A stretch of DNA of 64,000 bases from Klebsiella pneumoniae. GTDB lineage: Bacteria; Pseudomonadota; Gammaproteobacteria; Steroidobacterales; Steroidobacteraceae. Position 1 is the first letter of the stretch. Each line of letters begins with the position of its first letter. The stretch covers positions 62,001 to 126,000 of the forward strand of contig CAMCBU010000004.1 of assembly GCA_945873095.1 (NCBI GenBank). Reading direction: 5' to 3'. Below the pieces are notes generated by a model that had not been told where the DNA came from, searched no databases, and saw nothing but the letters and a program-made list of their open reading frames with translations. Below are positions 32,758-61,613 of this stretch, piece after piece. Position numbers and translations under genes: made by a program.

Positions 32758-32917
32758 GGTGGGTCGCGGGAAGCTTCTCGCAGCTCAAAATTTAGATGCG
32801 TTTTATGTTGCGACCCGTCAACCGGAGAAGGCGGGGCGGTTTCGGCAGCTCGCCCGCCAGCCGTAAAGTTGTCGGAGACAGATCCGACAGTGGCTCGATA
32901 AAGTCTGGCTTAGTGAA

Positions 32918-32962
32918 TGGTGGCCGGAGTCGGAATCGAACCAACGACACGCGGATTTTCAA
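32918..32962 (-). repeat. 3' fragment of tRNA-Phe (att-like remnant)
   Basis: Reverse complement TTGAAAATCCGCGTGTCGTTGGTTCGATTCCGACTCCGGCCACCA fits the tRNA-Phe(GAA) 3' half from anticodon loop to CCA; the upstream bases cannot complete the anticodon stem. Confidence 0.8.
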
Positions 32963-33102: not shown

Positions 33103-33118
33103 TGTCGTTTAAACGACA
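33103..33118. repeat. Palindrome TGTCGTTTAAACGACA, copy 1
   Basis: Read directly (aatgtcgtttaaacgacaac). Confidence 0.95.
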
Positions 33119-33626
33119 ACTGGTCTTTGATCGAAAGCAGTACAGTCGACGCCTCAGGGGTCGTGGAATCACCGTCTGCCCCTGACCGATAAGCACATCG
33201 CCCTCCCTGGGCTTATGAATGATCTCCTCGGTCGCCTATCTCTGCTGCTCCATCGCCCCAGTCTCCCGGCCCAGTTACTAACATTAAACCTGGGCCAACA
33301 ATACCGGGTCATGTCACAAGCAACAGCCAACTAGCGGCGAACTAACTCGTCAAGCAATCGCACTCCGAAGCCGACAGCCGCCCCATGCCTCGTTCGGCCA
33401 CTGCAATCGCCGCCGCCCAGTTCTCGGGCCTCTACAGGCCTTACTGACGGCGTTTAAAATTCCTATGCACGCTGGATCCGCCCCAATTTATCCTCCGTGC
33501 AAACCCGAAACGGCGAATGCCATCGCTTCAAGCAATACTAAGGTAGCGCCAGATAGACGACCGCGCCGGGACTTTCGCCGCATCCTTGGGTAACGCCTTG
33601 CTGCACGCCAGATCTGGAGAACCGAC

Positions 33627-34415
33627 ATGATCGAATACCTCACGCAGCTCGCCGCCGACCCGGCGGCCTGGGCCGCCCTCGTCACGCTGATCACCATGGA
33701 AGTGGTGCTGGGGATCGACAATCTGATCTTCATCTCGGTCCTGACGAACAAGCTTCCCGTCGAACAACGCGAGCGGGCACGAAGGATTGGGATCGGCTGC
33801 GCCCTGGGGATGCGCCTTGTTCTTCTTGGCACGATTGCCATCATCGTCCAGCTCACCGAGCCGGTCATTGAAGTTTTCGGCCAGGGTCTCTCGTGGCGCG
33901 ACCTGATCCTGATCGCCGGCGGCCTGTTCCTCGTCTGGAAGGCGACAAAGGAAATCCATCACAACGTAGACCCGACCCCAAACCCGGACATGTTCAACAC
34001 CCGGGCCGCGTCCATCGGCTTTTCCGCCGCCGTCGCCCAGATCCTGATCCTCGATCTCGTCTTCTCGGTGGACAGCATCATCACCGCCGTCGGCATGACC
34101 GAGCATGTCCCCATCATGGTCATCGCGGTCCTCGTCACGGTGGCCGTGATGCTGGCCGCCGCCAACCCTCTCGCTAACTTCATCAGTGCCAACCCCACGA
34201 TCATCATGCTGGCCCTCGCCTTCCTGTTGATGATCGGAACCACGCTGATTGCCGAGGGCTTCGGGGTCCATGTGCCAAAAGGGTACATCTACGCCGCCAT
34301 GGCCTTCTCGGCAATAGTCGAGACTCTCAACATGATGGCCCGCAACAGGGCGAGGAAGAAGGCTGCCCTCGCCGCCGCGGGCGTGGAGCCCGACAGAGGA
34401 ACTTCCTCGCATTGA
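33627..34415 (+). CDS. TerC family integral membrane protein (YgdQ-like)
   Basis: [69 protein letters not shown]. Confidence 0.92.
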
Positions 34416-34544
34416 AGTCATCGCCTTGAGCGTTTGCGTGGCGGGGCTCTGGCTCTACAGTCGAAAAGGTCGGAGTAGCAGCAGAGCATTGGTGCAGGGA
34501 TAGGCACAGCGGACAGCGTGTGAGCACTGCTGGCAGATCTGGAC

Positions 34545-34586
34545 TGGGCCCGCTTGGATTCGAACCAAGGACCAAGGGATTATGAG
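34545..34586 (-). repeat. 3' fragment of tRNA-Met(CAT), copy A
   Basis: Reverse complement CTCATAATCCCTTGGTCCTTGGTTCGAATCCAAGCGGGCCCA: CAT anticodon loop, T-arm GGTTCGAATCC, acceptor strand; no 5' half. Confidence 0.85.
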
Positions 34587-34838
34587 AAGACAGGACTAAC
34601 TCAATCCCATTGGCCATCAATCACTTACGCACTCCGAAATTCCGTGTGTAAGAGAATGTGTATGTAACAATCGTGTTTTTGACAAGTTTTTCAGGGGTTT
34701 TGACACTTTTCAATTCTACGCCGAACAACAGCCCTCCTATTTCGAGGTAACAGATAAACAGTTTTCTTTGAGCGATAAAAGAGTCGTCAAAAACGAGGGG
34801 TGACGAACCTACTCAGTCGCTGCGTTGAGCATCACGAA

Positions 34839-34854
34839 TGTCGTTTAAACGACA
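34839..34854. repeat. Palindrome TGTCGTTTAAACGACA, copy 2
   Basis: Read directly at the end of direct repeat A. Confidence 0.95.
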
Positions 34855-34872
34855 TCGCGTCGACTGTTGTAT

Positions 34873-35319
34873 CTACTGTCGTTTAACCGACAAGCTCACT
34901 CGGGATAACATCTCTTCGATGATGGGCAGATTTGTGGCACGAAAGTCAGCTGGGCGTTCATCCATGCATCCAATTAGGCCCTGACTCAGTGCCTCGGCGG
35001 CACCGGGACTCCAGGGAACGAGATCATGCCCCATCGCTAGCGCAGCGAAGTAGGTCAAAAACTGTATCGCATGCTCGAGCTCGTTGACTCGATGATTTAG
35101 AAAGTATTGATCGAAGGATTTCTTCAGTGACGCCAGAGACGCCCAGGCTTGCGCGCCTTCGGGATCATATCTGCGCTCCCAACGGCTGAGGGCCGAAAGC
35201 GACTTCCCGAGGTGGTAATAGGCGGCTGAGCCCTCTGCGGCTTGCCTCGCAAAGGCGCAGGTCCGTCCAAGATCGAGGATTGCCGCCAAAGGAACGTCTC
35301 CCTGTTCCCGAGGGTCCAT
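34873..35319 (-). CDS. Hypothetical protein (148 aa)
   Basis: Intact ORF, no family recognised; its last codons run through the near-palindrome (SVKRQ*). Confidence 0.5.
   Translation of the reverse strand: MDPREQGDVPLAAILDLGRTCAFARQAAEGSAAYYHLGKSLSALSRWERRYDPEGAQAWASLASLKKSFDQYFLNHRVNELEHAIQFLTYFAALAMGHDLVPWSPGAAEALSQGLIGCMDERPADFRATNLPIIEEMLSRVSLSVKRQ
34877..34892. repeat. Near-palindrome TGTCGTTTAACCGACA (one mismatch)
   Basis: Read directly, 38 bp after copy 2. Confidence 0.85.
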
Positions 35320-35627
35320 AGTCCCATATGGCAGTCAGTACAGCCACTTATTTCCGTCGGCTACCGGGTGTAGTCACGGCGCGTACTGTCCTAACAAGGA
35401 CCTGGAAATGACGGCTTAGACGCTAAGCGGCGCCTGGTCGTTCACTTAGGAACTCCGCCTTATCAGTAGTCCGACGACGTACGATGTGGATGTAATACCG
35501 AACAACGATTGATACGGTATTAAGATCTGGCGATGACTATTCTCGAAGGCGTCCACCCGCAGGCGCCATTCGACCAAGGTCGTTATTCGCTGTGGCGGGA
35601 TAAGGTGCCTGCGAACCGGGGTTTGAA

Positions 35628-37376
35628 ATGCGTAGTTGGATAACACCCTTAATTTTCGGTTGGATACTGTCACTCGCTGTTGCGATTACCACAATAACAA
35701 CAGTTAACTTTTCTGCACATCTTGCGGACCGCGGATTCACGACGGCCATCGCAGATGGCCGTGCAACCGTCACAGAAGTGGTCTCCGGTAGCGCCGCCGA
35801 ACGCGCAGGAATCAAAGTAGGTGACGTGCTAGATCGCGAAACGGCGAGACGAACAGAGACCGAATTCCTGCAGATTGACGATCCGCTACGATTTGACATC
35901 AGCCGCGAGGGCCGCTCGCTTAGAGTCACTTTCGTTCCAGATCGATCCGACAAATCATTCGAACAACGACTCTACGAGATCCATGCAGCGCTCACTCTCG
36001 TAGTCGTATTGTTTACCTCGCTCTTCATCACGTTATCGAAAGTGCGATTTACGTCGAGTAAATGGTTGGTAGCGAGTCTACTCGTCTTTCCACTTACAGG
36101 AATGCTGCAAACCAATCACCCCGATTTATCGCAGTTTGCGTTATTTGCCTTTACTCCAGCGACATGCGCTACGTTAGCGTTACTTCTGCAGTTTTGGATT
36201 TCCTTTGCTGCGGAAATTCGGTCACCGCTCGCAAAGGGTTGGGTGCATACGCTTCGAATAGCATGGATTATTACCGTAACGTCCTCGGTCACCGCCTCTA
36301 TCGCCGCAGCCAAAGAGACGCTACTAGCCGATAAGTACGCAAGTTTTTTCGAATTAGTCGGAAATAGTGCGTGGTTAGATCCCCTTAACGCATACCAGTG
36401 GTGGGGATACTCCATCGTCCTGCCCATTCTTTGCGTTGTAGCCCCGATTAAAATCATTCGACGATCAACTGGTGATGTCGAGAACCATGCTTACTGGGTC
36501 GCAGCGACGCTGTTGGGATTCGCAATTCCATGGTCTATCGGGCAGCCCGCGTTTTTCATTCTCGACCAACTTGGCTTGATCACGACCTATGGCGCCACGC
36601 TAAATCAAGTCATGGGATATTTGATCTGGCTCATCCCACTAAGTCTTTTATTGTTCTGCTACGTCGGCGTCTCTCAGCGAATGCTGAGCTTCAACTTCGC
36701 AGTCAATAAGACCGTTGTTTACTTGCTTACCGGTGGTCTTTTGTTGCTCGCTTATCTACTCTTAAAGCGTAATATCGAAACGATCTTACCGTCGGATGCG
36801 GAGACCAAGAAGAGTGCTGTAAACGGCCTAATTGCTTGTCTGGTCTTCATGGCTAAGCAACTCCGCGACCTATCAGACATTGCACTTAAGAAGTTTATTT
36901 TTGTGGATCTCAATCGGAGAGAAAATAAACTTTCCGAATTTCGAAACAAAATGAGCCACTTCAAGACGAGCACCGCATTAGAGGACGCCACAGCGAGTAC
37001 GCTTTCCTCGTTTTGTCATGGCGCCCGCGTACAAATATTTTCCCACTCTAACGGTTCTTATTGTGACCGTCGTACCCAGGAGCAGATCTTGGTCGACGAC
37101 GAAATTCCAGTCGCGCTCAGGACGGGACGGAGCTCTGTCCTGAATCCCGGTGATCCTCAAGCAAGCCGCTGGCGGGTCGTCACGCCGATATTTGATCGAC
37201 AAGACTTGGTTGGATTCGTCGGAATTGAATACGATCCTATGCTGCCGACGTTACGACCGGATGAGATACGATGGATTGAGAAGATTGTTCGTCAATTCGG
37301 AATTCAGTCGGCATTGCTTGAATTAGATTTATTACGGGCCACCCAACGACGTCTCGCCTCGGCCGAAGGATCTTAG
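35628..37376 (+). CDS. PDZ-domain multi-TM membrane protein with C-terminal GAF-like region
   Basis: PDZ-like ATVTEVVSGSAAERAGIKVGDVL, then several TM helices and a cytoplasmic GAF-like tail; no kinase or cyclase motifs. Confidence 0.75.
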   Translation: MRSWITPLIFGWILSLAVAITTITTVNFSAHLADRGFTTAIADGRATVTEVVSGSAAERAGIKVGDVLDRETARRTETEFLQIDDPLRFDISREGRSLRVTFVPDRSDKSFEQRLYEIHAALTLVVVLFTSLFITLSKVRFTSSKWLVASLLVFPLTGMLQTNHPDLSQFALFAFTPATCATLALLLQFWISFAAEIRSPLAKGWVHTLRIAWIITVTSSVTASIAAAKETLLADKYASFFELVGNSAWLDPLNAYQWWGYSIVLPILCVVAPIKIIRRSTGDVENHAYWVAATLLGFAIPWSIGQPAFFILDQLGLITTYGATLNQVMGYLIWLIPLSLLLFCYVGVSQRMLSFNFAVNKTVVYLLTGGLLLLAYLLLKRNIETILPSDAETKKSAVNGLIACLVFMAKQLRDLSDIALKKFIFVDLNRRENKLSEFRNKMSHFKTSTALEDATASTLSSFCHGARVQIFSHSNGSYCDRRTQEQILVDDEIPVALRTGRSSVLNPGDPQASRWRVVTPIFDRQDLVGFVGIEYDPMLPTLRPDEIRWIEKIVRQFGIQSALLELDLLRATQRRLASAEGS

Positions 37377-37671
37377 GTGCCGCTTTACTCAGCGACTGAT
37401 TGGAACGGCACAGATAAAAATCGGTGATGGCGAAGGGGACGAACCTTGCGGAGGAGAGCATGCACGTTCGTCGAAAAATCGACGTGTTGATCCTTTGCAG
37501 AGTCTCGACGGCGCGAATGACAAAACAAGACAAGTATGCGGCGAGTGTGTAAGCGCCCTGCTCTTCTAACTCGCTGATTTTTCTCACGGCGAAATGAACT
37601 CAAAGGGATTAGTTCGTTTCTGACGTGTCAGATCAGAATTTGTGACACGCTAACTCATTGATTTGTAAGAC

Positions 37672-37713
37672 TGGGCCCGCTTGGATTCGAACCAAGGACC
37701 AAGGGATTATGAG
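37672..37713 (-). repeat. 3' fragment of tRNA-Met(CAT), copy B
   Basis: 42 nt identical to copy A. Confidence 0.85.
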
Positions 37714-37968
37714 AAGACAGGACCAATTCAATCCCATTGGCCATCAATCACTTACGCACTCCGAAATTCCGTGTGTAAGAGAATGTGTATGTAACAAACG
37801 TGTTTTTGACGTATTTTTCTGGGGTTTTTGACACTCTTGACCTACAACGTCGAATAGCAGATTACCTACTCCTCAGATAACAGGTAAACACTTTTCTTTG
37901 AGCGATAAACGAGTCGTCAAAAACGAGGATTGACGAACCCGCGCAGTCACCGCGTGGAGCGTCCCGAA

Positions 37969-37984
37969 TGTCGTTTAAACGACA
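37969..37984. repeat. Palindrome TGTCGTTTAAACGACA, copy 3
   Basis: Read directly; overlaps the stop codon of the macro-domain gene. Confidence 0.95.
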
Positions 37985-38505
37985 TTTACCTGCGTAACAG
38001 GGATGGCCTCGTAGAAGATCTGATACAGCATCGCATCCACGACTGTGAATCGGATCTCCTGCAGGTGGCTAAGATTGGGAGCCAGCTGAAAGGCGGTTTT
38101 CACGAGTATCGGTACCGCCTCATCGATCGGATATCCATAGATCCCCGTCGATATCGCCGGTACGGCGAGGCGCCGTATCTTTTGAGCGTCGGCAAGCCGC
38201 ACCGCGCTCTCTAATGCCCTAGCCAAATTGGCGGGAGGATTCGGGTCTTCGTGGTACTTCGGTCCGCGGGTATGGAAGAGTTTTGCCGTAATCTCGAACC
38301 CTGGCGAGGCGATGGCTTCCCCGAGCCCGAGCGGTGCCAACGGACGGGTGTAACGCTCGAGTTCTGGTCCGGCGGCTTTATAGATCGCGCCGCAGACACC
38401 GCCGCCTGCGATGAGATACGCGTTAGCGGAATTGACCAGGCCGTCGCAGTCGGTCTGCTTGAGGATATCCCCTAAAACTACGGTGACCTGAGCGGTCGCT
38501 TTCAA
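37975..38505 (-). CDS. Macro-domain protein (ADP-ribose binding/hydrolase family)
   Basis: VVLGDILKQTDCDGLVNSANAYLIAGGGVCGAIYKAAG and RRLAVPAISTGIYGYPIDEAVPI. Confidence 0.92.
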   Translation of the reverse strand: MKATAQVTVVLGDILKQTDCDGLVNSANAYLIAGGGVCGAIYKAAGPELERYTRPLAPLGLGEAIASPGFEITAKLFHTRGPKYHEDPNPPANLARALESAVRLADAQKIRRLAVPAISTGIYGYPIDEAVPILVKTAFQLAPNLSHLQEIRFTVVDAMLYQIFYEAIPVTQVNVV

Positions 38506-43298: not shown

Positions 43299-46200
43299 AT
43301 GACAGAGCGGACATCATTGCTCACTGCTGCATTAGAGCAGCTACGTCTGAAACTGCTTGATCTGACCGGCCGTAACCGTCTCGTTAATTTCAAGCATACG
43401 GCAGGAAGATCGCTGCAGTTTGTCCAAGGTAATCCCGAAGCAATTTATAACAAGCTGGTGGAAGGAACAGGTCGTAGTGCCATCAACATCCTCGGTCTTT
43501 CCGAACCACCCCGTAAAAACTGGATCGAACGCAACGGACGGTTACAGCGACCCGACCCGCGCGAATGGGCGACCGTCGATCGTGTTCCGACTTCTTACGA
43601 CATCGTGTCCGGCACAGACGGAATAGCGGACGCGAATGTTCGAGCATTGATGTACCCGGATGATCTAGCTAAGCACTGCCGCAAGATCGAGCGCGAGGCA
43701 AAATTAGCCATTGAAGAAACCGGCGCGAACATGCTTTTTATCGTACTCGGGTTTCTTGAGTTCCCGGATCAACGTAATAGCGATAACAAGTTTCTGGCGC
43801 CTTTAATCAGCATTCCCGTGTCGCTTCAAAAGCGTGAAGTGGCTGGCATTCAGCAGTTCTCTGCTCAATACACTGGCGATGACATCACGGAAAATCTATC
43901 TCTCAGAGAGAAGCTGCGTAACGATTTCGAAATCGTATTGCCAGAGCTATCAGAAGACGAGATTGATGTTGAAGGCTATTTTAGAAGTATCCGAAAGGTA
44001 ATCAAGCATCAGCCTGAGTTCGCAATCCGAACTCGCGTGTCACTTTGCTTGCTTAGCTTTAGCAACATGCTACTAGTCAGGGACCTCGACCCCTCAAAGT
44101 GGCCATCTATTGATGATAAAAATGCGTTACTCGATCACCCAATAGTCAAGGAGGTATTTGAAGGTCGGGCAGATGCTGGCGGGGCTGCATTGGGAATAGC
44201 GGAAGAACATCCTGTTGAGGAAGGCCCCGGTACAGAGATCCCACTTATCTATGACGCAGACAGCTCACAACACAGCGCGCTCGTCGACGTTCTGGCACTA
44301 AACAGAAACCTCGTCATTGAGGGTCCGCCAGGCACTGGCAAATCGCAGACGATCACGAACCTCATAGCTGCATGCCTCTCGAAAGGAAAGAAGGTCCTAT
44401 TTGTTGCTGAAAAACTGGCAGCGCTCGAAGTCGTCAAAAACAGACTGACTCTCGCCGGTCTCGATCCTTTCGTTTTAGAACTACACAGCAATAAAACGAG
44501 CAAGAAACGAGTCCTTGAGGAGCTTGAAGCTCGAATCAAATTTCGGCCGAGTGTCTCCAAAGAACTACCGAGACTTCAAGAACAGATGGAGTCACACCGC
44601 CGAGACCTAAAGGCGTACTCCGATCTAATCAATTCAGTGTCATGTAACTCCTTCGGGCTCACGCTGCATCAAATCATGTGGCGAGCTGAGAAGTATCGTC
44701 AAAATCTCAAGACGGACGAAACCTCGCTGACTCAGATCGCCGTCGAGGATGCGTCTCAAGTTTCCGCGGTTGAGTTAAGTCGTCGGATGGAGCTCCTCGG
44801 GTATCTGGCCGATCAATATCGCGCCACAGGGGGATTTGATTCGAATTGCGCGTTTTGGGGCTTCTACCCAAAACCGTTAGTCCCTGGCGATGAAATTCGG
44901 CTTTCAGCTATTTTCAAAGAGGCGGAGACTACCAGCGAGAACCTTGTCCATTTCGCCGATGCCTTAGCCGGGGCATTGGGTGAGAGCATCCATAACGTAG
45001 GCGTCCAGTATTGTGAAAAGCAGATCCATACGCTTAATCCGCTGATCGCGGCCGCGAATGCCCGACTCCCGTTTGAGCTAACCCCTACGTTATTCGCGGA
45101 CGATGACTCCGGCCGTGCCGCCTCTGCCGCGCTGAGCACCTTCTCGAGCCGAGTGACTCGGTATCACGAACTGGAACCTAGCGTAACCTGTGCACTGACA
45201 GACGATGCGAAGGTTAGTAACGAGTCCCGTGCGGGGCTCCAAACCCTGCAACGGTCTGCCGATAGCCTGGGCGCCGCCTTGGCAACACTCCACGATATTG
45301 AGTCACTAGCACAGCGGCTTTCTGATTTGGCGGAAAGCCTAGGAGCGGCTGCGGCGAAGCTGGAGACTTTCTCCCAGCGCCTTCAGATCCCGTTCGATGG
45401 TTCTCGCGAATCTCTGAAGCGACTCGCAGAACTGACCGCACTTGTCAGCGAGCCACCCGAGCAGCATCTACATCTTTACTCCCCAGCCATTGGTCGGGAT
45501 GGAGCCACTCAGGCGATCGAAGCGCTTGATGCTCTTCAGTCGCAGTGGGTTAGCCTTGAGGAGTCACTCAATCAGTCGCTGTATCTCGATGTCCTTCCGC
45601 CTGAATCGGAGATTCGGGAGGCAATGCTGACTCTTCGTGAAGGCGATGCTTGGTACCGAGTTTTTCAGAGTCACTGGCGCCGTGCGATCCGACTCCACAA
45701 ACGCCTTCTACGCATAAAGCAACGATCACCGACTCTAGATCGACTAATTCAGCTTGAGCAAATCCTGAAGCTGATTGACTTGAAGCGCCAGTGGCAATCG
45801 TCAACTACGTGGAGAGATTACTTAGGGATACAAGGCTCTGAAGCGGCCGTGCCACTCGATGGCTATCTCGCGCTCGCGAAATGGAGCCACTCCTTAAAAC
45901 GGTCACTTGACGAGATTGAGGCCACGCTGATCAGACCGGAAGATTTCACCGCTGAAAGGATTCGCTTGCTTCGGCGTGAGTTTTCTGCGAACAGGGGCGA
46001 TGTTTCATCCGCGGTATCGGCGTTCGGCAGCCTGCACGACCTGCTGCCTCGGCTCGTTGACTTCAACGGTGGCAGTACAATTTCAAAAACTATCGAGAAG
46101 TCCGTCGAATTAAAAAATGCGCTTTCGGCACGCCTTCCATGGCTTCGAGCCAATGCGAGAAGCACTGCGAATTTCAATAACGTCATCGCTGGCTGTGATG

Positions 46201-48725
46201 CAGCTTTAGAGCGCCACGAGCTGAGGAATCTGATCGAGTCAGATCAAAACGTCAAAAATCTCCTCAGCACCACTTATCACGGTGTCCAGACAAACTGTTT
46301 GGATGCGATGGAGGTTTTGCGGATTGGTCAGAGCTTAGATTCGCTCGACTTATCTCCTCAGGTGAAGACCCGACTCAGGAGCGCGCATCTTCTCGACACC
46401 GCGAAGATACTCGTCGCACGCCTCGCAGATGTCCTTGGCGAACTTCGCAGTGTTGAGGCGTTTAGCAACACGCTCTCCGAGTTCGGAGTCTTCGATCTTG
46501 CTGACTGGGTTGGCGATGACCCTAATGGCGATATACAGAGCTTTGCGCGAGCGTTCCGCGATTCGTCGAAAAAGGCCGCTGCTAGTCCGGATCTTCTGAT
46601 CCCTTGGGCGCTTTACATCGCGCGACGAGGAGAAGCGGTCGAGGCTTCTCTGAGTGTCTTTGTAGAGCTACTTGAAGAACGACGCTTAGATCCGAACGAG
46701 CTTACAGATGCCTACGCGTACTGCGTATACAGTTCGATTACTCGGATGGCCTTCAGAAAAATCTCACAGCTTGGAAGATTCACGGGACTGAAACATAACC
46801 AGATCCGCGAAGAGTTCCAACGACTTGATAAAGAACTCATCTCGCTACGCGGAAAGGCTGTTGGACAACAGTGCGCTCGGACGATTCGAATCCCGCCCGG
46901 ACGCAGCGGAGCGCGGCTCGACGACAAAACCGAGATGGTTCTTTTGAACTATCTGATACCGCAGCAGAGACCGCGGATGCCTGTCAGGAAAATGCTGAGC
47001 CGTGCCGGAAGCGCAGTCCAGGCACTTAAACCTTGTTTCATGATGGGCCCGCAGGCGGTGGCTCAGTACCTGGCACCGGGTGCCGTTAAGTTTGATCTCG
47101 TCATTATGGACGAAGCCTCGCAGCTGCGGCCCGAGGAGGCTATCGGCGCGATCGCTCGTGGCGGTCAGTTAGTCGTGGTTGGTGACCCGAAGCAATTACC
47201 ACCAACCTCATTCTTCTCACGGATGACCCAAGATGGTGACTCGGGCGAGGAACAGTTCTCGACGACCGATGCTGAAAGCATCCTTGATGTCTGCTCGTCG
47301 CACTTTCATCCGACTCGAGCGCTTCGGTGGCACTACCGCTCGCAGCACCACTCCCTGATCGCTTTCTCAAATCACAACTTTTACCAAGGCAACCTTGTCA
47401 TATTCCCCTCCCCTTACGGTCAAGGCGGACGATTGGGAGTTCGAGCGACTTATCTCGCGGATGCGGTCTACGAGCAGCAAACAAACATACGGGAGGCTAA
47501 GCGCGTCGTAGATGCCGTCGCTGAGCACATCGCGACACGCCCCGGCGAATCGCTGGGTGTCGTCACCCTCAATATTAAGCAGCGCGATTTAATCGCTGAG
47601 CTGTTAGACGAGCGACTCAAGACGGCGCCTGGGGCCGATTCGTATCGTGATCATTGGACCACCGCGGGGCAACCGCTCTTCATCAAGAACCTAGAGAATG
47701 TTCAAGGCGATGAACGTGATGCGATAATCATCTCGACAACTTTCGGAAAACCGCAAGGAGCAAATGCGGTAAGACAGAACTTTGGTCCGATCAGCCGACA
47801 GGGTGGATGGCGTCGACTAAACGTGCTCTTCACTCGAGCCAAGAAATCGATCGCGCTGTATACCTCGCTTCGTCCAGAAGACATCATCGTGGACGGAGCG
47901 ACGCCTGAGGGCACTAAAGCACTTCGAAATTACCTTGAATACGCTCGCACGGGTTTGTTGCCCACGATACAAGAAACGGGTCGCGATCCTGATAGCGATT
48001 TTGAAATTGCAGTCATGGATGTCCTAAAGCGACGCGGCTATGCGGTTACACCTCAGCTTGGGGTTGCGGGGTATCGAATAGACATAGCGGTCAAGCACCC
48101 GGATGCGCCGGGCGCGTATCTGGCAGCCATCGAATGCGACGGCGCCTCCTATCATTCAGCACTTTCCGTGCGCGACAGGGATCGTATCCGGCAAGAGATT
48201 CTTGAGGCTTTGGGATGGCGCGGACGAATTTGGCGCATCTGGTCAACCGATTGGTTTCGCACGCCGAGGCAGGAGACTGAGAAATTGCTCGGTTTCCTCG
48301 ATGATCTCCGACGTAACTGGCGCCCGGAACACACCTCAAGCGATGCGTGGATTGAGGAGGGACAGGCGCCTAATGCTACCGTCGATGATTCACAATTTAG
48401 ACCCGCAGTCGGTGATGTTCCGACACTCTCCGAGACTGATCGAAAAACCGTCAGCGCCGCATTGATCGATACTGGTGAGGACCTAGAAGTTGAAGTGGGC
48501 GATCTCGTCCGTTACCTAGACAAAGCCCGACCCGATGACGTTTTGTCCGTTCAGATAACCAAGGGCAAGGATGACTTCACCAATGGCATCGTGAATGAAA
48601 GTCGACCTCTTGCCCAAGCGCTACTTGGTGCCGTCATTGGAGATGAAGTGGCTTTACATCTCGTTGGACAGCCCCCAAAAAAATTATTGGTCATTGAGAT
48701 AAGACGGCTTAAATCAGATATCTAA
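43299..48725 (+). CDS. Large DUF4011-type superfamily 1 helicase with C-terminal nuclease-like domain
   Basis: N-term LRLKLLDLTGRNRLVNFKH; Walker A VIEGPPGTGKSQTI; Walker B KFDLVIMDEASQLRPEEA; GDPKQLPPTSFF; RWHYRSQHHSLIAFSN; VQGDERDAIIIST; C-term IDIAVKHPDAPGAYLAAIECDGASYHSALSVRDRDRIRQEILEALGWRGRIWRIWSTDWF. Confidence 0.9.
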   Translation: MTERTSLLTAALEQLRLKLLDLTGRNRLVNFKHTAGRSLQFVQGNPEAIYNKLVEGTGRSAINILGLSEPPRKNWIERNGRLQRPDPREWATVDRVPTSYDIVSGTDGIADANVRALMYPDDLAKHCRKIEREAKLAIEETGANMLFIVLGFLEFPDQRNSDNKFLAPLISIPVSLQKREVAGIQQFSAQYTGDDITENLSLREKLRNDFEIVLPELSEDEIDVEGYFRSIRKVIKHQPEFAIRTRVSLCLLSFSNMLLVRDLDPSKWPSIDDKNALLDHPIVKEVFEGRADAGGAALGIAEEHPVEEGPGTEIPLIYDADSSQHSALVDVLALNRNLVIEGPPGTGKSQTITNLIAACLSKGKKVLFVAEKLAALEVVKNRLTLAGLDPFVLELHSNKTSKKRVLEELEARIKFRPSVSKELPRLQEQMESHRRDLKAYSDLINSVSCNSFGLTLHQIMWRAEKYRQNLKTDETSLTQIAVEDASQVSAVELSRRMELLGYLADQYRATGGFDSNCAFWGFYPKPLVPGDEIRLSAIFKEAETTSENLVHFADALAGALGESIHNVGVQYCEKQIHTLNPLIAAANARLPFELTPTLFADDDSGRAASAALSTFSSRVTRYHELEPSVTCALTDDAKVSNESRAGLQTLQRSADSLGAALATLHDIESLAQRLSDLAESLGAAAAKLETFSQRLQIPFDGSRESLKRLAELTALVSEPPEQHLHLYSPAIGRDGATQAIEALDALQSQWVSLEESLNQSLYLDVLPPESEIREAMLTLREGDAWYRVFQSHWRRAIRLHKRLLRIKQRSPTLDRLIQLEQILKLIDLKRQWQSSTTWRDYLGIQGSEAAVPLDGYLALAKWSHSLKRSLDEIEATLIRPEDFTAERIRLLRREFSANRGDVSSAVSAFGSLHDLLPRLVDFNGGSTISKTIEKSVELKNALSARLPWLRANARSTANFNNVIAGCDAALERHELRNLIESDQNVKNLLSTTYHGVQTNCLDAMEVLRIGQSLDSLDLSPQVKTRLRSAHLLDTAKILVARLADVLGELRSVEAFSNTLSEFGVFDLADWVGDDPNGDIQSFARAFRDSSKKAAASPDLLIPWALYIARRGEAVEASLSVFVELLEERRLDPNELTDAYAYCVYSSITRMAFRKISQLGRFTGLKHNQIREEFQRLDKELISLRGKAVGQQCARTIRIPPGRSGARLDDKTEMVLLNYLIPQQRPRMPVRKMLSRAGSAVQALKPCFMMGPQAVAQYLAPGAVKFDLVIMDEASQLRPEEAIGAIARGGQLVVVGDPKQLPPTSFFSRMTQDGDSGEEQFSTTDAESILDVCSSHFHPTRALRWHYRSQHHSLIAFSNHNFYQGNLVIFPSPYGQGGRLGVRATYLADAVYEQQTNIREAKRVVDAVAEHIATRPGESLGVVTLNIKQRDLIAELLDERLKTAPGADSYRDHWTTAGQPLFIKNLENVQGDERDAIIISTTFGKPQGANAVRQNFGPISRQGGWRRLNVLFTRAKKSIALYTSLRPEDIIVDGATPEGTKALRNYLEYARTGLLPTIQETGRDPDSDFEIAVMDVLKRRGYAVTPQLGVAGYRIDIAVKHPDAPGAYLAAIECDGASYHSALSVRDRDRIRQEILEALGWRGRIWRIWSTDWFRTPRQETEKLLGFLDDLRRNWRPEHTSSDAWIEEGQAPNATVDDSQFRPAVGDVPTLSETDRKTVSAALIDTGEDLEVEVGDLVRYLDKARPDDVLSVQITKGKDDFTNGIVNESRPLAQALLGAVIGDEVALHLVGQPPKKLLVIEIRRLKSDI

Positions 48726-51969: not shown

Positions 51970-52141
51970 CTCCCCTGCATCAAGAGACGGGACTTCGGTC
52001 CTCGCCAACCTGCCAACTCGGGCAAGGTGGTCGCCGCTAAAGCGGGATGTGGCTGGTCAGGCAAATAAACGAGGCCATGATTAGCAACATTGAACGAGCC
52101 TGACTCGTGATGCGGTTTGTCCAACACCAGGAGCACCGATC
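51970..52141 (+). ncRNA. Candidate structured 5' leader
   Basis: GGAC-TTCG-GTCC hairpin, CCAACCTGCC-aactcg-GGCAAGGTGG near-stem, CCGCTAAAGCGG hairpin before the ATG at 52142. Confidence 0.45.
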
Positions 52142-60030: not shown

Positions 60031-60630
60031 TCAAATCAGCTCAACGGCTTTTCTCACAGTCTGCGGATCGGTATCGATGTAACGCTGTAGCACCTGAAGA
60101 CTGCGATGTCCCGAGAGCTGCATCAAGACACGAGCCGCCACACCTTTTGCAGCCAAGTTCGTAATGAACCCTCGCCTGCCGCTGTGTGAACTCGCTCCTG
60201 AGATGCCGGCGCCCCGGTAGATGTAATGGAAGACCTGGGCGCCGGTATTGGGTGTAAACCCACGATCGGGATGCTTTTGGGTGGTAAAGAGCGCGCGATT
60301 CAGATCCGTCAGCAACACGGGCTTTAGATCCTTCGTATTGAAGCGATTCAGTAGATACTGACGGATCTCGTCTTGTGCTTTCTTGGGAAGCAATACGACT
60401 CTGCCCCGATCTCCTTTCGTCTGACTGGGCTTGAGACGAATCTCGTCTTTGATCTCCGCTTCCGGGGTCAATACATCCCCCAGTCGTATAGAAACCAATT
60501 CTCCGACGCGCATTCCGGTGTAGTGCGATAGCAATACCAGGGCGCGATTGCGGGATGCGTGTTTACGCCCCGCGATGAACAACAACACTTTTCGAACTTC
60601 TCGATCCGACAGAACTCGGGCTTGTGACAT
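60031..60630 (-). CDS. Short tyrosine recombinase (catalytic domain only, 199 aa)
   Basis: LLSHYTGMRVGELVSIRLGDV (Arg), SSHSGRRGFITNLAAKG (HxxR-like), LSGHRSLQVLQRYIDTD (His, Tyr). No recognisable N-terminal core-binding domain. Confidence 0.88.
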   Translation of the reverse strand: MSQARVLSDREVRKVLLFIAGRKHASRNRALVLLSHYTGMRVGELVSIRLGDVLTPEAEIKDEIRLKPSQTKGDRGRVVLLPKKAQDEIRQYLLNRFNTKDLKPVLLTDLNRALFTTQKHPDRGFTPNTGAQVFHYIYRGAGISGASSHSGRRGFITNLAAKGVAARVLMQLSGHRSLQVLQRYIDTDPQTVRKAVELI

Positions 60631-60880: not shown

Positions 60881-61613
60881 ACGGCGAGCCGTTGTCAGCG
60901 ACTCGTGCCCATTCCATTCGTATCCCTGATTTCGGGCAAATGTGTTGCCCAAAACCGCACTTTGATATCGGAACTTTTTCTATTGATTACGAATGAGGAC
61001 TAAATACATTTGTCTGCGAGATGTTATGAGCGTCCCGACAGTCATTCACACCATCGGTAAAGAGCTATGCCCCTCGACTGTTTGGGCATCCTGAACCTGG
61101 CACAACGTATGCTCAAGGAAGGAAAGACCGTTCGATGGCGGAAACATCGTCACTATCCCCCACGTGGGACGCCGCTCGGAGTCGTCGTCGAGCTGATTGG
61201 ATGTTAAGAGACGTAAAGACAGACGCTAGATTGCGTCATGTCACGAGCAGGCTACGCGACTACGGCGACCTGCAGATCTGATCGATGCGGTCATCTCCGC
61301 TACGATCGAGATCGCGTTGTATCAGCAGCGTGTAAAGGGAGACCGCACAGCCGCCCCTTCCCTGAGAAATTAGGGTTACGTATCGAGATGATGTGGTGAA
61401 GGACTCAGCGAAAGAGCCTTTGCGACACTGGGCCAAGAGAGATAGGCCCAGTGTGGCTCGAGATCTTGCGAAAGTGCGAGAGAAACCCAAAGACCAAGTG
61501 CCCCAATATCCTAGTTCTCTCATCCATCCCTGGCCTACTGAAGTGATTTAAGTCTGCCGCGAGATGGCTCGCCCGTGAGCGATCAGCGAACGGTAGCGAG
61601 CCACGAAGCGGCT

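Follow-up and report, generated by a model that had tools for sequence, protein, structure and literature searches.

Cargo-only elements in tandem have been described in several bacteria. In S. salivarius, classical cis-mobilizable elements (CIMEs) of 1.2-13 kb occur in tandem accretion, and they are described as decayed integrative and conjugative or integrative and mobilizable elements (ICEs or IMEs) that have gene 3' ends as targets and conjugative helpers (PMC7563491). At ssrA in Dehalococcoides, 15 of 31 islands lack an integration module (PMC3146451), and the pieces of the Methylopumilus flexible genomic island fGI-2 range from 330 bp to 42 kb (PMC10872708). Here we analyze a locus in a window of 64,000 nucleotides (positions 62001-126000 of contig C4 in the 2.49-Mb draft genome G000, a freshwater member of the Steroidobacteraceae). 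At a tRNA-Ile2(CAU) site, a 3,127-bp element without an integrase (element 1, E1) is followed by a larger element that brings a tyrosine recombinase and a tRNA of its own (element 2, IntE), and short cassettes with the same left end (LE) recur in related genomes. We interpret the locus as part of a tandem array of integrated elements at tRNA-Ile2(CAU), in which cargo-only cassettes would be served in trans by an IntE-type integrase, and we put the probability of this reading at roughly 0.68.

The CIMEs of S. salivarius resemble these cassettes in being cargo-only, in having kept their attachment sites, and in forming tandems in which the integrase-bearing helper lies nearer the target (PMC7563491). 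They differ in that many cassettes here have a common short LE across the genus. Bearing on an origin by deletion from an ICE or IME, LE1 of E1 and LE2 of IntE are 88% identical, yet the two elements have no common cargo and no relic gene was seen; no relaxase was found among the IntE proteins scanned. The Dehalococcoides islands are likewise tandem and bounded by repeats of an RNA gene 3' end, but they have a serine recombinase module and use the T-loop of transfer-messenger RNA (PMC3146451), whereas here the recombinase is of the tyrosine type, the target is a tRNA anticodon loop, and cassettes go down to 0.65-3 kb. In the additive flexible islands of Alteromonas (PMC4119200) and Methylopumilus (fGI-2; PMC10872708), cassettes are also added at one tRNA and marked by 3'-end repeats; the available parts of these two reports define no common left end, arm sites, or helper integrase.

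IntE matches the published logic of tRNA-dependent lysogeny in actinobacteriophages, in which the core does not rebuild the tRNA and a tRNA of the disrupted isotype is carried (PMC10865867). Unlike those phages, IntE has a group I intron in the target loop of its tRNA and sits among cargo-only elements, and no phage structural gene was found among the IntE proteins scanned. Integrons, too, combine a nearby tyrosine recombinase with an array of small cassettes that mostly look promoterless and in which toxin-antitoxin and acetyltransferase genes are frequent. In contrast to integrons, the site here appears to be double-stranded tRNA sequence (a conserved 3' half plus a fixed LE) rather than a folded attC, and cassettes reach 7.3 kb. 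The IntE integrase had no NCBIfam match, integrase_gron included, and its best match was a phage-type PHROG family, so it is not IntI-type. We found no paper joining a group I intron, tRNA-Ile, an integrase, and a genomic island, nor did the literature searched contain the combination seen here, in which very small cassettes have a common LE with arm-like sites and the helper brings a spare tRNA with an intron.

E1 is a site-specific insertion at tRNA-Ile2(CAU)

Two direct repeats, 34542-34856 and 37669-37985, are 88% identical by blastn and spaced 3,127 bp apart, with 96% identity over their first 160 nt. Each starts with a 45-nt tRNA 3' half on the minus strand that runs up to the anticodon-loop sequence TTATGAG, continues into a conserved AT-rich LE (GC content 0.43 in LE1 versus 0.57 for the window), and then reaches the palindrome TGTCGTTTAAACGACA. 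A preliminary description made from the window alone had reported both repeats with their tRNA 3' fragments, quoted sequence differences between the copies, and placed the 16-bp palindrome at the end of each, all of which we found in place. It gave the common fragment as 42 nt of tRNA-Met; the same fragment does head both copies, but it is 45 nt long and identical at 45/45 positions. The first 3' half lies at 34542-34586, with the crossover core TTATGAG at 34580-34586, and the second, at 37669-37713, is carried by E1. Using an LE model (R1) built on sequence only, LE1 of E1 (34587-34856, plus strand) scored 96.6 bits and LE2 of IntE (37714-37985, plus strand) scored 93.2 bits.

ARAGORN also called the array tRNA genes Met(cat). 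The other CAT tRNAs in the genome (L157 and L172) read as elongator and initiator tRNA-Met. Because these separate Met genes sit elsewhere, and based also on sequence features, the array tRNA is almost certainly tRNA-Ile2(CAU) and not tRNA-Met.

The left flank (33561-34541, plus strand) contains the TerC gene (33627-34415; PF03741, 1.4e-46) and leads up to the tRNA. In G004, a genome of the same genus, the counterpart of 33561-34586, with the TerC gene and the DNA between it and the tRNA, shows 99.3% identity over 1,026 bp and adjoins an intact tRNA-Ile2; the homology is confined to this kilobase and shows the site, not genome-wide synteny. The two sequences part at the last base of TTATGAG, where G004 continues into the tRNA 5' half and the window into LE1, which places the crossover within the anticodon loop. 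Since the G004 flank runs into an intact tRNA and identity ends at 34586, E1 is a site-specific insertion without an integrase. Each repeat copy is a junction, in which the 3' half belongs to the DNA on its left (host or E1) and everything after it forms the left end of the next element to the right. Thus, the two 313-bp copies of the preliminary description exist, but no repeat of that length flanks an element on both sides; E1 is bounded by the identical 45-nt attachment (att) repeats.

E1 (34587-37713, plus strand; 3,127 bp core to core) has two clear open reading frames (ORFs) and no integrase, as had been proposed. The first ORF (34873-35319, minus strand; 148 amino acids) belongs to no known family, and a cassette that adjoins the intact tRNA-Ile2 of G008 matches its segment 35082-35311 at 96% identity. 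The second (35628-37376, plus strand; 582 amino acids) had only a short PDZ match (PF17820, 9.5e-5, below the cut-off), one full-length relative in the genus (30% identity), and no solved relative that we could find. Neither E1 protein matched an integrase or relaxase, and E1 was not found among plasmids. Its right end (37551-37668, plus strand), which finishes in ATTGATTTGTAA, recurs in a G018 cassette: over 260 nt, 37551-37810 is 93% identical to the right end of an otherwise unrelated 7.3-kb Mg-chelatase cassette.

Two similar copies in direct orientation could also arise from local segmental duplication, without two integrations. The copies differ by 12%, however, E1 and element 2 have no common cargo, and in other species the repeat accompanies different genes; the uninterrupted G004 site contradicts duplication outright, and we regard it as having almost no chance of being correct. 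It is scarcely more credible that the tandem junctions are metagenome assembly artefacts across repeats. Many contigs of the set do end at repeats, but both G000 junctions are internal to a single 145-kb contig and have unique flanks, the same architecture appears in independent assemblies, and the boundary is backed by G004. The uninterrupted site and the recurrent LE agree with the earlier proposal that two related elements were inserted one after the other at a single tRNA, with the amendment that the second repeat belongs to a larger, integrase-bearing neighbor.

The left end and its cassettes recur across the genus

The LE was sought in 24 genomes belonging to the genus and in another 193 from the family. 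It was present in 14 of the 24 and in 2 of the 193, with conservation of about 80% across the genus, and it was often tandem (series in G001, G006, G018, and G022). Restriction of the left end to this one locus, which the preliminary description had named as evidence against its proposal, is not what we see, because the LE recurs in these 14 genomes. Contigs of the same kind came from gammaproteobacterial and Steroidobacteraceae metagenome-assembled genomes (MAGs) of freshwater and coastal samples; the LE pattern was not found in viral contigs. In a MAG labeled Acidobacteria, one contig has such a left end at its terminus (L097:7567-7668), reflecting either transfer or misbinning.

Seventeen cassettes could be delimited on both sides, with sizes of 0.65-7.3 kb by junction spacing. 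No recombinase was detected among their scanned proteins, some short ORFs lying outside the scan. Cargo included toxin-antitoxin pairs and acetyltransferases (HigB with a helix-turn-helix partner, BrnT/BrnA, RelE, and GNAT acetyltransferases), arsenic resistance (ACR3 and an ArsC-like protein), a TonB receptor accompanied by purple acid phosphatase, a Rieske oxygenase, a BchH/BchI/BchD-like Mg-chelatase, glucokinase, and an MFS transporter. The 7.3-kb cassette of G018 (contig C6; L040:297-7237) encodes a DoxX protein together with the BchH/BchI/BchD-like subunits, which makes a step of the bacteriochlorophyll type part of the mobile cargo, and a 1.8-kb cassette of G001 (contig C3; L038:3087-4653) holds the ArsC-like protein and the ACR3 arsenite transporter.

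Some cassettes recur in other neighborhoods or species, namely, between G001 and G019 (83% identity over 728 bp), G001 and G015 (94% over 529 bp), and G023 and G003 (91% over 1,234 bp). In G019, a 1.3-kb cassette with BrnT/BrnA and a GNAT gene has an intact intronless tRNA on one side and, on the other, a displaced 3' exon with a group I intron. Among internal 3' halves, 16 of 33 had three or fewer of the five T-stem pairs, compared with 0 of 7 intact tRNAs (Fisher p = 0.03, uncorrected for relatedness), which means that arrays tolerate broken copies at positions other than the working gene.

These data bear on whether the cassettes descend from integrase-bearing elements whose recombinase gene was deleted, leaving immobile relics that remain where they are in the array or, like classical CIMEs, travel only in cis with a neighbor. 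Such an origin fits the decay of some attachment sites and the broken T-stems. It also fits the order of the elements, since IntE lies closer to the target tRNA than E1 does, as has been reported for helpers and CIMEs in S. salivarius (PMC7563491). It fits poorly with the presence of the same cassettes in different neighborhoods and species, with the lone 1.3-kb cassette at the G019 tRNA, in a genome in which we found no homologue of IntE, with the genus-wide conservation of left ends, and with E1, where no integrase remnant was seen. We therefore consider relics unlikely.

Paired arm-like motifs and a palindrome at element ends

LE1 and LE2 each contain a paired arm-like motif, GTGTGTAAG-N5-TGTGTATG in LE1 (34644-34664, plus strand) and its counterpart in LE2 (37771-37791, plus strand). 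We searched 667 kb of sequence for GTGTGTAAG-N1-7-GTGTAAG, allowing one mismatch per half. There were 29 pairs, 28 of them at element ends, versus 0.33 expected in shuffled sequence. Twenty-three were in the LE type of this array (LE-A), two in a second LE type (LE-B), three at the right end of IntE (in G000, G015, and G012), and one elsewhere. Because the sequence set had been collected for its LEs, the pairs that carry weight are those that recur at the IntE end and in LE-B. The pairs are putative integrase arm sites, and their presence in most LEs and at the IntE end suggests that one integrase may act on all of these elements.

The palindrome is found in LE1 (34839-34854, with a one-mismatch copy at 34877-34892), in LE2 (37969-37984), and behind a tRNA-Phe fragment (33103-33118, exact match). 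Chance expectation for TGTCGTTTAAACGACA is 0.01 per window. Genome-wide, with at most one mismatch, there are six sites, all within C4:95103-123703, exact at 33103, 34839, 37969, and 50428 and with one mismatch at 34877 and 61688. Several cassettes from other species have it as well, about 220-260 nt away from the crossover, and it is possibly an operator or another cis-acting site.

IntE supplies an integrase and an intron-bearing tRNA

IntE occupies 37714-64000 of the window on the plus strand and extends past it to C4:128513 (66513 in the window frame; positions beyond 64000 are given on contig C4), for a size of about 28.8 kb. It is probably one unit: no further att site was found inside, with collinearity to G015 only from 55788 onward. 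Its tyrosine recombinase (C4:126617-128005, minus strand; 463 amino acids) was located as an ORF adjoining the tRNA and through PHROGs (PHROG integrase, 1.7e-25). The PF00589 profile missed it and is a poor detector of IntE-type integrases. R247, R390, H391, and Y423 (the R, R-H, Y catalytic set) are invariant in seven relatives, and identity to a Psychrobacter phage integrase is only 24%.

Without introns, ARAGORN reported no tRNA in the window or the following 19 kb; a complete tRNA-Ile2 (C4:128048-128320, minus strand) appeared once an intron was recognized. It is split after CAT by a 198-nt group I intron (RF00028, 48.3 bits, E = 3.6e-11, slightly below the gathering score of 50), and spliced, intron-bearing CAT tRNAs were predicted by intron-aware ARAGORN in G000, G015, and G012. 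HEARO/IscB RNA was also considered for the insert and was dropped, since Rfam gives a group I intron. Homology between IntE of G000 and that of G015 ends exactly at the core, and beyond it lies an orphan host 5' half in G015 and G012 and a third LE in G000. The right end of IntE has only GGATTATGAG in common with the tRNA, and the host 5' half then follows; integration therefore does not rebuild the gene, and the element supplies its own. In the G000 assembly, the tRNA-Ile2 5' half borne by IntE is the sole copy. The intron splits the same loop that is used as the core and might thereby protect the gene, although the G019 cassette adjoins an intron-bearing half. Elsewhere in the family, tRNA-Ile2 genes of other genera are apparently split in the anticodon loop (L134:8485-8747 and L132:8318-8641), in G033 (L134) by a different group I intron.

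A model for cassette accumulation

In the array model that we favor, a tyrosine recombinase would join the anticodon loop TTATGAG of the tRNA (the bacterial attachment site, attB) to the same core on a circular element whose attachment site (attP) would comprise right end, tRNA 3' half, TTATGAG, and left end. Cargo-only cassettes such as E1 would consist of attP and passenger genes, have no recombinase, and depend in trans on an IntE-type integrase, which probably reads the paired GTGTGTAAG arm sites common to cassette left ends and the IntE right end. Every integration would add one tRNA 3' half; because each leaves another such half, cassettes would accumulate in tandem, and internal halves need not function. 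IntE, whose attP would not rebuild the tRNA, would bring the complete tRNA-Ile2 with its anticodon loop split by the intron. Excision of the elements, their transfer between cells, help in trans, and the function of the arm sites are inferences in this model.

A more specific version is a genus-specific, integron-like capture system at a tRNA gene, with one trans-acting integrase and a helper whose intron-bearing spare tRNA frees the target from rebuilding, so that arrays grow and att sites drift. We advance it tentatively and rate it as somewhat doubtful.

Several observations weigh against the array model. No excised circle, expression, or transfer was observed. Cassette right ends do not have the paired arm motif, and about 10 LEs stand without a recognizable tRNA half in front. 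All genomes are drafts, several relatives are MAGs, and assemblies frequently break at the repeats. Finally, three cassette-bearing genomes (G006, G019, and G023) show no IntE homologue and, as judged by PF00589, no tyrosine recombinase beyond a XerC/XerD-like pair. The supplier in these genomes may therefore have been lost, have been transient, be missing from the assembly, or be something else. One candidate is the host XerC/XerD pair, which could move cassettes as it does dif-exploiting elements, and these three genomes have just two strong PF00589 proteins, both XerC/XerD-like. Phage-type tyrosine integrases, however, typically use targets such as this one, a tRNA anticodon loop accompanied by arm-like repeats; IntE occupies the same site and has the arm motif as well; and no dif-like site was recognized by eye, with no formal test. 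Movement by XerC/XerD is accordingly very improbable.

If one integrase moves cassettes of one to four genes in trans at a tRNA, freshwater bacteria could make much of their small-scale gene gain with no integron, phage, or conjugative element visible in the cassette itself, and the usual island finders that need an integrase gene would miss it. A helper with its own intron-bearing target tRNA would also provide a testable account of how arrays are tolerated in a likely essential gene.

A possible sister site at tRNA-Phe and other features

Left of TerC, at 32916-32962 on the minus strand, lies a second kind of attachment-site fragment, a tRNA-Phe(GAA) 3' half that matches the tRNA-Phe 3' half on contig C33 of G000 and in relatives at 47/47 positions. 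A sister system seems to exist at tRNA-Phe, since IntE-like integrases of other genomes (31-34% identity) adjoin that gene.

IntE cargo includes an Hhe-like anti-phage protein of 1808 amino acids (43299-48725, plus strand; NF042953, 1356 bits against a cut-off of 2000; PADLOC Hhe and PDC-S37). A second tyrosine recombinase of 199 amino acids, with a catalytic domain only (60031-60630, minus strand; PF00589, 1.1e-20), lies about 4 kb from the main integrase and has counterparts near the integrase in G015 and G001. Two further RNA elements were recognized within the IntE stretch, an S-adenosylmethionine (SAM)-I/IV riboswitch at 51972-52078 and a Polynucleobacter-1 RNA at 61062-61202.

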